Below are positions 1-33,715 of a stretch of DNA of 33,715 nucleotides, piece after piece. The stretch comes from Solirubrobacteraceae bacterium (GTDB taxonomy: Bacteria; Actinomycetota; Thermoleophilia; Solirubrobacterales; Solirubrobacteraceae). A program made the translations under genes and the position numbers. Under the pieces are notes generated by a model that saw nothing but the letters and a program-made list of their open reading frames with translations, had not been told where the DNA came from and made no database searches. The stretch is from assembly GCA_024711025.1 (NCBI GenBank), contig JANJTP010000036.1, positions 1 through 33,715 on the forward strand. The letters run 5' to 3'. Position 1 is the first letter of the stretch. The number at the start of each line of letters is the position of its first letter.

Positions 1-32
1 GACTGGAGTTCAGACGTGTGCTCTTCCGATCT
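1..32 (+). other. Illumina TruSeq adapter remnant (not genomic)
   Basis: These 32 bases match, from memory, the 3' part of the TruSeq read-2 adapter, ending in the familiar GCTCTTCCGATCT. They are sequencing-library DNA left at the contig edge. The reading frame of the first gene runs back into them, so an apparent GTG start at 18 and the residues MLFRS after it are artefacts. Genomic sequence begins at or very near 33. Confidence 0.97.
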
Positions 33-1283
33 GCCGGGCAGATCCTCGCCGGCTCGCGCACCGCCGTGGCGGCGGCCCGCCTGGCGGGTGCGGCGGGCCG
101 CTCCGTGCGCGCCGTCGCTCGTCGCGCGCTCGGCACCGCTCTCGCCCGTCCGGGGCGGGTCGTCGCGGTCGCGGCCGCGCTCGCCGCCCTCGGCTGGGCA
201 CTCGACACGCAGACGCGGGTCGAGTCCGACGTCCAGCGACTCGTGCCCCAGGACCTCGTGGCGCTGCGCGACCTGCGTGACCTCCAGCGCATCAGCGGCG
301 TCGGCGGTGAGGTGAGCGTGCTCGTCGAGGGCAGCCGCGTCACCGACCCGGAGGTCGTCGCCTGGATGACCGACTACCAGGCGCGCGTCGTCGAGCGCCT
401 GGGCTTCACGCCGCAGCGCGGCTGCGGGCGCGCCGACATCTGCCCGGCGCTGTCGCTGCCGGACCTCTTCACCACGAAGGCCTCGCTCGCTTCGCGAAAG
501 CGCATCGAGAGCCTGCTCGACGCCGTTCCCCCCTACTTCTCGCAGAGCGTCATCGCCTCCGACCGGCGCGCCGCGACGCTGTCCTTCGGCCTGCGCCTCA
601 TGCCCCTCGACCGCCAGGTGGACGTCCTGCGCACGATGCGCAGCGAGCTCGACCCGCCACCCGGCGTACGTGCGCGCCTCGCCGGCCTGCCGGTGCTGGC
701 CGCCGAGGCCCACGAGCGCATCGCATCGCCGTGGCGGCGGGCGACGACGCTGGTCGTGGGGCTGCTGGGGGTCGCGCTGGTCCTGCTCGCCGCGCTGCGC
801 AGCCTGCGGCGGGCGCTCCTGCCGCTCGTGCCGATCGTGCTCGCGACCGGCTGGTCGGCGCTCGTTTTGTTCGCGCTGCGGATCCCCCTGAACCCGATGT
901 CGCTTGTGCTCGGGGCGCTCGTGATCGCGATCGCGACCGAGTTCAGCGTGCTGCTCGCCGAGCGCTATCGGGCGGAGCGCGCGGACGGGCACGGCGTGGA
1001 GCGCGCGCTGCGCCGCACCTATCGCTCGACCGGTGCCGCCGTGCTCGCCTCCGGCGTCACGGCGATCGCCGGCTTCGCCGTGCTCGTCGTCTCCGACGTG
1101 CGGATGCTGCGCGACTTCGGCTTCGTCACCGTCGTCGACCTCGCAGTGGCGCTCGTCGGCGTGCTTGTGGTGCTCCCCGCCGTGCTCGTCCTCGCCGAGC
1201 GCCGCGCCGCTGCTCCGGTCCGGGCCGGCGCCGGGCTGCGGGGGCGCCTCGCCGCGCCGGCGCGCGGGGCGGGGGAGGGGTGA
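33..1283 (+). CDS. RND/MMPL-family transporter, C-terminal part (5' truncated)
   Basis: This is the C-terminal half of an RND-superfamily exporter of the MMPL / HAE3 type, which uses proton flux to move lipids or hydrophobic compounds across the membrane. The fragment (416 residues) opens with a cytoplasmic linker and a membrane segment (about residues 40-55), followed by an extracellular loop of about 180 residues. Five closely packed hydrophobic segments follow (about residues 235-400), matching TM8-TM12, and the protein ends in an Arg/Ala-rich cytoplasmic tail. The N-terminal half lies beyond the contig edge and the first codons seen upstream are adapter. The stop overlaps the GTG of the next gene (GTGA), so the two are probably co-translated. 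Substrate cannot be told. Confidence 0.85.
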   Translation, partial: AGQILAGSRTAVAAARLAGAAGRSVRAVARRALGTALARPGRVVAVAAALAALGWALDTQTRVESDVQRLVPQDLVALRDLRDLQRISGVGGEVSVLVEGSRVTDPEVVAWMTDYQARVVERLGFTPQRGCGRADICPALSLPDLFTTKASLASRKRIESLLDAVPPYFSQSVIASDRRAATLSFGLRLMPLDRQVDVLRTMRSELDPPPGVRARLAGLPVLAAEAHERIASPWRRATTLVVGLLGVALVLLAALRSLRRALLPLVPIVLATGWSALVLFALRIPLNPMSLVLGALVIAIATEFSVLLAERYRAERADGHGVERALRRTYRSTGAAVLASGVTAIAGFAVLVVSDVRMLRDFGFVTVVDLAVALVGVLVVLPAVLVLAERRAAAPVRAGAGLRGRLAAPARGAGEG

Positions 1284-1927
1284 GCTCGGAGATCGTCGTC
1301 GAGCGGGGCTGGCTGGCGCCCGACCTCGCGGAGGAGCACCCCGGCCTCGGGCTGCTGAGCTGCGGCTCGGCGATCGCCTCGGCGTCGGCCGAGCCCGGCG
1401 TGCGGGCGCGGCTGGAGTCCCTCGCCGACCGGCTGCGCGGAGCGCGGGCGCTGGAGCTGCGCCGCGAGCCCGTGCCGGCCGCGTACCGCGTCTTCTACCG
1501 TCACATCGGCATCGACCCCGACGTGACCCGCACGCCGGTCGAGCGGGAGGTGCTCGAGCGGCTGCTCCACGGTGGGCTGCGGTCGCGCGGGCGGATCGCC
1601 GACGCGCGGGCGCTCGCCGTCCTCGAGACCGGCGTCGCCGTCGACGCCCTCGACGAGGTCGCACTTGCCGGGGCCCTCGGGCTGCGCCCGGCCGCCCGCG
1701 GCGAGCGGCTCGGCGCGGGGGCCGGCGCGCGCCCGCTGCGGCCGGGACGGATCGTCGTCGCCGACGGCGAGCGCGCGCTCTACGAGCTGTTCGGAGCCCT
1801 GCCCGAAGGTGTGGCTCCGCATCGTCGTACGCGCTCGCTGCGGCTCGTCGCCGTGCAGGTCCCCGGCGTGCCGTCGATCCACGTCGAGGAGGCGCTGTGG
1901 ATCGTGCGCGAGGCGCTCGGGCACTGA
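1280..1927 (+). CDS. B3/B4 tRNA-binding-domain protein
   Basis: A 215-residue protein that is essentially one B3/B4 domain, the fold found in the beta subunit of phenylalanyl-tRNA synthetase and in stand-alone proteins. The hallmark is visible at residues 70-97: YRVFYRHIGIDPDVTRTPVE, then a Leu-rich helix and a Gly. Stand-alone members are suspected of acting on aminoacyl-tRNA or amino acids, but no function is established. The start is taken at the GTG whose last two bases begin the TGA of the transporter gene; no other start fits the domain. A short repeat tract follows the gene. Confidence 0.8.
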   Translation: MSSEIVVERGWLAPDLAEEHPGLGLLSCGSAIASASAEPGVRARLESLADRLRGARALELRREPVPAAYRVFYRHIGIDPDVTRTPVEREVLERLLHGGLRSRGRIADARALAVLETGVAVDALDEVALAGALGLRPAARGERLGAGAGARPLRPGRIVVADGERALYELFGALPEGVAPHRRTRSLRLVAVQVPGVPSIHVEEALWIVREALGH

Positions 1928-14662: not shown

Positions 14663-14761
14663 AAGCGCAGATACGCGGTACCGAGGACATGTCTCGGATG
14701 CAGACCGATACGTATCCGCGAGCGAGGACCTCGTCCGGTCGGCCAGTCGGCCGCGGCGCGT

Positions 14762-14795
14762 GCGGTGAGAGCGATCTTGCGGTGAGAGCGATCTC
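14762..14795. repeat. Tandem 17-bp duplication
   Basis: GCGGTGAGAGCGATCT is present at 14762-14777 and again at 14779-14794, making two adjacent 17-bp units that differ only in the last base. It lies just before the beta-propeller gene in the 141-bp gap after 14662 and could be a replication-slippage duplication or a two-site operator. Confidence 0.75.
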
Positions 14796-32867: not shown

Positions 32868-33715
32868 ATGCCGTCGGTTCCCCTCGCCGCGCTGGGCGAC
32901 GACCCGGGCGCGATCGCGGTCGTCGTCGCGGTGGTCGGCGCGCTGCTGCTCGTCGACCTGCTCGTCTTCGCCAGGGGGCGCGAGCCCTCGCTGCGGGAGA
33001 GCGTCGCCTGGAGCCTCGGCTGGCTGGTCGTCGGGTTGATCGCGACGATCCCGATCGCGCTGCTCTCGAGCAGCGAGGAGGGGATCAACTACGTGACGGT
33101 CTACCTGATCGAGCGCACGCTGTCGCTCGACAACCTCGTCGTGTTCCTGTTGATCTTCGGCTCGTTCGCGGTGCCGCCGGCACAGCGCGGGATCCTGCTG
33201 TTCTGGGGGATCGTGCTGGCGCTCGGGATGCGCGGCGTCGCGATCGTCGTCGGCGTCGAGCTGATCGACCGCTTCCACGTCGTCATCTACATCCTCGGCG
33301 CGACGCTGCTCGTGCTCGCCTGGCGGATGTGGCAGGGGGGCGCCGAGGAGGTCGATCCCCAGCGCAACCCGCTCGTGCGGCTCGCCGGGCGCGTCTGGCC
33401 GGTCGGCGGCTACGAGGGATCGCATTTCTGGGTGCGGCGCGAGGGCCGCGCCGTGCTGACGCCGCTGGCGCTGGCGCTGGCCGCGATCGTCGCGGCCGAC
33501 ATCGCCTTCGCGATCGACTCGATCCCGGCGGCGTTCGCGATCACCGACAACGCGCTGGTGATCTGGGCGGCGAACGGCTTCGCGCTGCTCGGCCTGCGGG
33601 CGCTGTTCGTGCTGGTGACGGCGCTCGTCGCGCGCTTCCGCTACCTCAACCAGACGGTCGCGATCGTGCTCGGCGTGGTCGCCGTGAAGCTGCTCGTCGA
33701 GGACGTCTACAAGGT
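32868..33715 (+). CDS. TerC-family membrane protein (3' truncated)
   Basis: The open frame runs off the right end after 282 codons. Membrane segments begin at about residue 16. The two TerC/Alx landmarks are present: YLIERTLSLDNLVVFLLIF and AADIAFAIDSIPAAFAITDNALVIW, whose acidic residues (ERTLSLDN and DIAFAIDS) define the family, implicated in metal homeostasis (manganese efflux for Alx) and tellurite resistance. Only the last segment or so is missing. Likely co-transcribed with the antiporter. Confidence 0.9.
   Translation, partial: MPSVPLAALGDDPGAIAVVVAVVGALLLVDLLVFARGREPSLRESVAWSLGWLVVGLIATIPIALLSSSEEGINYVTVYLIERTLSLDNLVVFLLIFGSFAVPPAQRGILLFWGIVLALGMRGVAIVVGVELIDRFHVVIYILGATLLVLAWRMWQGGAEEVDPQRNPLVRLAGRVWPVGGYEGSHFWVRREGRAVLTPLALALAAIVAADIAFAIDSIPAAFAITDNALVIWAANGFALLGLRALFVLVTALVARFRYLNQTVAIVLGVVAVKLLVEDVYK

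Follow-up and report, generated by a model that had tools for sequence, protein, structure and literature searches.

A residual Illumina adapter at a contig edge lies in frame with an MMPL-family transporter gene divided between two contigs

The stretch analysed here (hereafter the window; 33,715 bases) is the whole of contig C59 in a genome assembly of 3,137,022 bases (3.14 Mb) comprising 72 contigs. At its left edge, bases 1–32 of the forward strand match the end of an Illumina TruSeq adapter, and they run directly into the C-terminal part of an MMPL-family transporter gene (33–1283, forward strand; 416 codons and a stop). The next gene downstream (1280–1927, forward strand) encodes a 215-amino-acid protein with a weak resemblance to the B3/4 domain (PF03483, E = 1.1e-05; 25.6 bits, under the cut-off of 29.3) and likewise follows the transporter in 15 of 19 loci from relatives. 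After this second gene, a near-identical pair of stretches around GCGGGCCTCGTCGCGTACGCG could be made out by eye at 1951–2046, while a perfect two-copy tandem repeat of the 17 bases TGCGGTGAGAGCGATCT lies at 14761–14794. The right end of the contig cuts through a gene for a TerC-family membrane protein (32868–33715; PF03741, E = 2.9e-41), and adapter sequence is absent there. Neither tRNA nor Rfam RNA was found in the window.

The 32 bases at the 5′ edge, GACTGGAGTTCAGACGTGTGCTCTTCCGATCT, are identical at all 32 positions to the Illumina TruSeq read-2 adapter at its insert-side end. The match occupies the very extremity of the contig (C59:1–32, forward strand) with its insert side (..GATCT) towards base 33, where the genomic sequence of C59 begins. 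When up to three mismatches were tolerated, the window gave a single hit to the 32-mer and 100 shuffles gave none, and under an equal-base estimate about 3e-13 exact 32-base matches would be expected in the genome; a chance match is ruled out by these two results. The GC content of bases 1–32 is 53% versus 72.5% in the window, although composition alone would be insufficient to reveal the adapter because 2.4% of the 33,651 other 32-base stretches are as low in GC or lower. Moeller et al. (2024, PMC11536531) give the universal adapter 12-mer as AGATCGGAAGAG and its forward-specific continuation as CACACGTCTGAACTCCAGTCA; joined, these two strings make up 33 letters, and window positions 1–32 are the reverse complement of letters 1–32 among them. 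An earlier sequence-only reading had named these bases as TruSeq read-2 adapter, and the exact match, the shuffles and the published letters all bear this out. Bases 1–32 of C59 are leftover Illumina adapter, an ordinary assembly artefact without new biology.

The reading frame of the first gene is open at the left edge (3–1283), as expected from the earlier proposal that it continues into the adapter. Its bases 3–32 translate to LEFRRVLFRS and its bases 18–32 to VLFRS, or to MLFRS if GTG 18, the first in-frame start codon, initiates; GTG and four further adapter codons (18–32, forward strand) would then head a frame of 421 amino acids (18–1283). Since bases 18–32 lie within the adapter, MLFRS was rightly described as an artefactual N-terminus, and the same holds for LEFRRVLFRS: both are adapter-derived, and the start at GTG 18 is false. 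The sequence-only reading had also anticipated that the start would be called at GTG 18. An in-frame GTG giving MLFRS does exist, but it is one possible call and not a certain one; with open ends permitted, a gene caller would probably return a 5′-partial gene from base 3, carrying ten adapter residues instead of five. A literature search for the string VLFRS yielded, in the titles and abstract openings listed, work on plant light responses and no description of adapter-derived VLFRS peptides.

Adapter contamination of this assembly is slight, because adapter sequence stands at only 1 of its 144 contig ends. The 13-base core common to both adapter arms is present in the genome as a single copy (C59:20–32), and the read-1 arm is absent from the genome at up to three mismatches. 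In the published 12-mer Poisson count test, which gauges the contamination level of an assembly and not the identity of one copy, the probability of at least one copy is 0.17, not significant for this genome; the case for an adapter therefore rests on the full 32-mer together with its position. One residual adapter escapes count-based screens, and such a copy is detected by full-length match and edge position.

Exact searches with the 32-mer in contigs of GTDB species and in viral contigs returned at least 120 loci in each collection, with distances taken to locus ends, not contig ends. Among the matches listed for GTDB species (123 in 120 loci), all 123 had the outer end of the adapter towards the nearer locus edge and 120 lay within 250 bases of a locus end; among those listed for viral contigs (121 in 120 loci), orientation and proximity held for 120 each. 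The orientation exception among the matches listed, L219, covers just 280 bases of a contig of 36,870 bases, too few to tell. In a sample of the phylum, 4 of 396 genomes contained the 32-mer, the present genome counted. One genome in that sample (G302) holds 109 exact copies and is a heavily contaminated assembly.

The part of the transporter carried by C59 matches the MMPL family (PF03176) at E = 2.5e-30 and 106 bits, compared with a curated cut-off of 20.5, and a protein search found a match in 31/31 genomes (its own and 30 relatives). Homology to relatives sets in with the residue immediately following the adapter (residue 1 of the query in the genomes G005 and G015, residue 1 in the loci L003, L004 and L006), and the homologous DNA in relatives runs on upstream without adapter. 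When open frames were scripted for ten relatives, the transporter measured 878–965 amino acids in nine; the tenth, of 501 amino acids, comes from G015, where the contig (C45, taken from its first base) begins inside the transporter gene. Because the open frames of relatives are about 880–965 amino acids long, gene 1 represents the C-terminal half of the transporter.

The protein search of its own genome with the C59 half also gave a weaker match near the end of contig C7 (18,781 bases), whose terminal 513 codons form an open frame homologous to MMPL (PF03176, E = 1.1e-16), so that one MMPL repeat resides on C59 and one on C7. In 16 of 19 relative loci, the C7 half immediately precedes the C59 half, with 445 or more residues aligned; one further locus (L006) retains 63 residues of it, and the two that are without it (L017 and L019) stop near where the C-terminal match begins, as would be consistent with a contig edge. 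The C7 half matches the relative loci that the C59 half matches, and in 13 same-genus loci it does so at 61–69% identity over 445–504 residues. The gene upstream on C7 likewise precedes the transporter in three of four relative loci tested (L263, L264 and L265); the fourth, L266, is without it and begins inside the transporter. Gene 1 is thus not complete, as its N-terminal half forms the end of C7 in the same genome, and the earlier warning that annotating it as complete would be wrong is justified.

We read the junction from the DNA, because a multiple alignment had misaligned the final C7 residues inside the variable linker. C7 ends in ..GCC GCC TGG CG and C59 resumes after the adapter with GCC GGG CAG. 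In all six relatives with DNA printed (seven were given to the script), exactly two codons part the Trp from the following Ala, and on this basis a gap of about 4 bases is predicted between C7 and C59, across which the reading frames would agree. No exact overlap was detected between the end of C7 and C59, and no adapter at the end of C7 itself. Most likely, the gene in the organism is one continuous reading frame. C7 and C59 are to be treated as neighbours, bases 1–32 are to be trimmed and gene 1 is to be marked 5′-partial.

We conclude, with a confidence close to certainty, that bases 1–32 are an untrimmed library adapter kept by the assembler and that C59 breaks inside an MMPL gene whose N-terminal half lies at the end of C7. 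In the sequence of events that we envisage, a short library insert would have ended at the present base 33, and sequencing would have continued beyond it into the adapter at its opposite end; left untrimmed, this adapter would have been retained by the assembler as the terminal bases of the contig. The break may have been made by the adapter reads or by thin coverage of a GC-rich repeat. Given that the end of C7 has neither an adapter nor an exact overlap with C59, the adapter may be a marker of the contig break and not its cause.

That repeat, a 30-base GC-rich tandem array of 2.9 copies, fills the last 86 bases of C7 (18696–18781; 2697–2782 of locus L262). It lies in frame within the linker that joins the two MMPL repeats, with its first 2.2 copies 97% alike, and by itself it could reduce coverage. 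One alternative, compatible with our explanation and differing from it in the cause of the break alone, is therefore that the repeat made the break and the adapter merely sits on an end that would have arisen without it. The reach of the array to the last base of C7 and the clean end of that contig speak for it; against it, the repeat is confined to the C7 side, with no further copies in its own genome at up to three mismatches beyond two in the array, so that ordinary reads should span it, and contigs are reported to merge once adapters are removed (PMC11536531). We rate this alternative as a serious contender that falls somewhat short of an even chance. A further reading, that the break meets a lineage-specific expansion of the 30-base repeat in the MMPL linker and that the adapter flags a spot where library fragmentation or amplification is poor in this organism, seems to us rather unlikely. 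If this reading were true, assemblies may recurrently misjudge the MMPL linker. The end of C7 shows no unusual single-strand folding (z = 0.56).

Much less probable is a reading that accepts the adapter as artefactual and denies that C7 and C59 are neighbours, the gene either beginning on C59 or having its 5′ half elsewhere. It can draw on contig ends that do not overlap and on other MMPL matches in the same genome, on contigs C22 and C45, but it has to contend with a C7 half that ends at a conserved Trp from which relatives continue with the first residues of C59, with frames that fit the 4-base gap, with the matches of both halves to the same relative loci (61–69% identity for the C7 half in 13 same-genus loci) and with the shared upstream gene in three of four loci; on this evidence we regard it as very improbable. 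The least tenable proposal, whose probability we put at practically nil, is that the 32 bases are native, adapter-like by chance or biology, and that gene 1 encodes, from GTG 18, a short but complete MMPL protein: the frame is indeed open through these bases and single-domain MMPL-like proteins are possible in principle, but the chance expectation of about 3e-13 and the fact that 16 of 19 relative loci carry the missing half contiguous with that of C59 leave it hardly any room.

With the adapter and the divided gene taken as we read them, the significance of this locus is one of data hygiene alone. An annotated protein would start with 5–10 adapter residues and be short of about half the transporter, and one transporter gene would be counted as two. 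Once the adapter has been detected, protein homology can name the neighbouring contig.

In common with MMPL-family (PF03176) transporter genes, both halves match PF03176, and relatives carry both in one open frame; in the present case the assembly has distributed the gene across two contigs, which shows no biological difference. Adapter contamination as a general phenomenon is already published: Moeller et al. (2024, PMC11536531) describe it at contig ends of public microbial assemblies, with clustering at edges and loss of contiguity. The C59 case agrees with that account in its universal adapter with the forward-specific part, its position at a contig extremity, its orientation and the broken contiguity. 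It differs from that account in three respects: the assembly has a single copy, too few for the paper's count test (P = 0.17); the adapter is in frame with coding sequence; and the neighbouring contig is named here from protein homology despite the lack of overlap.
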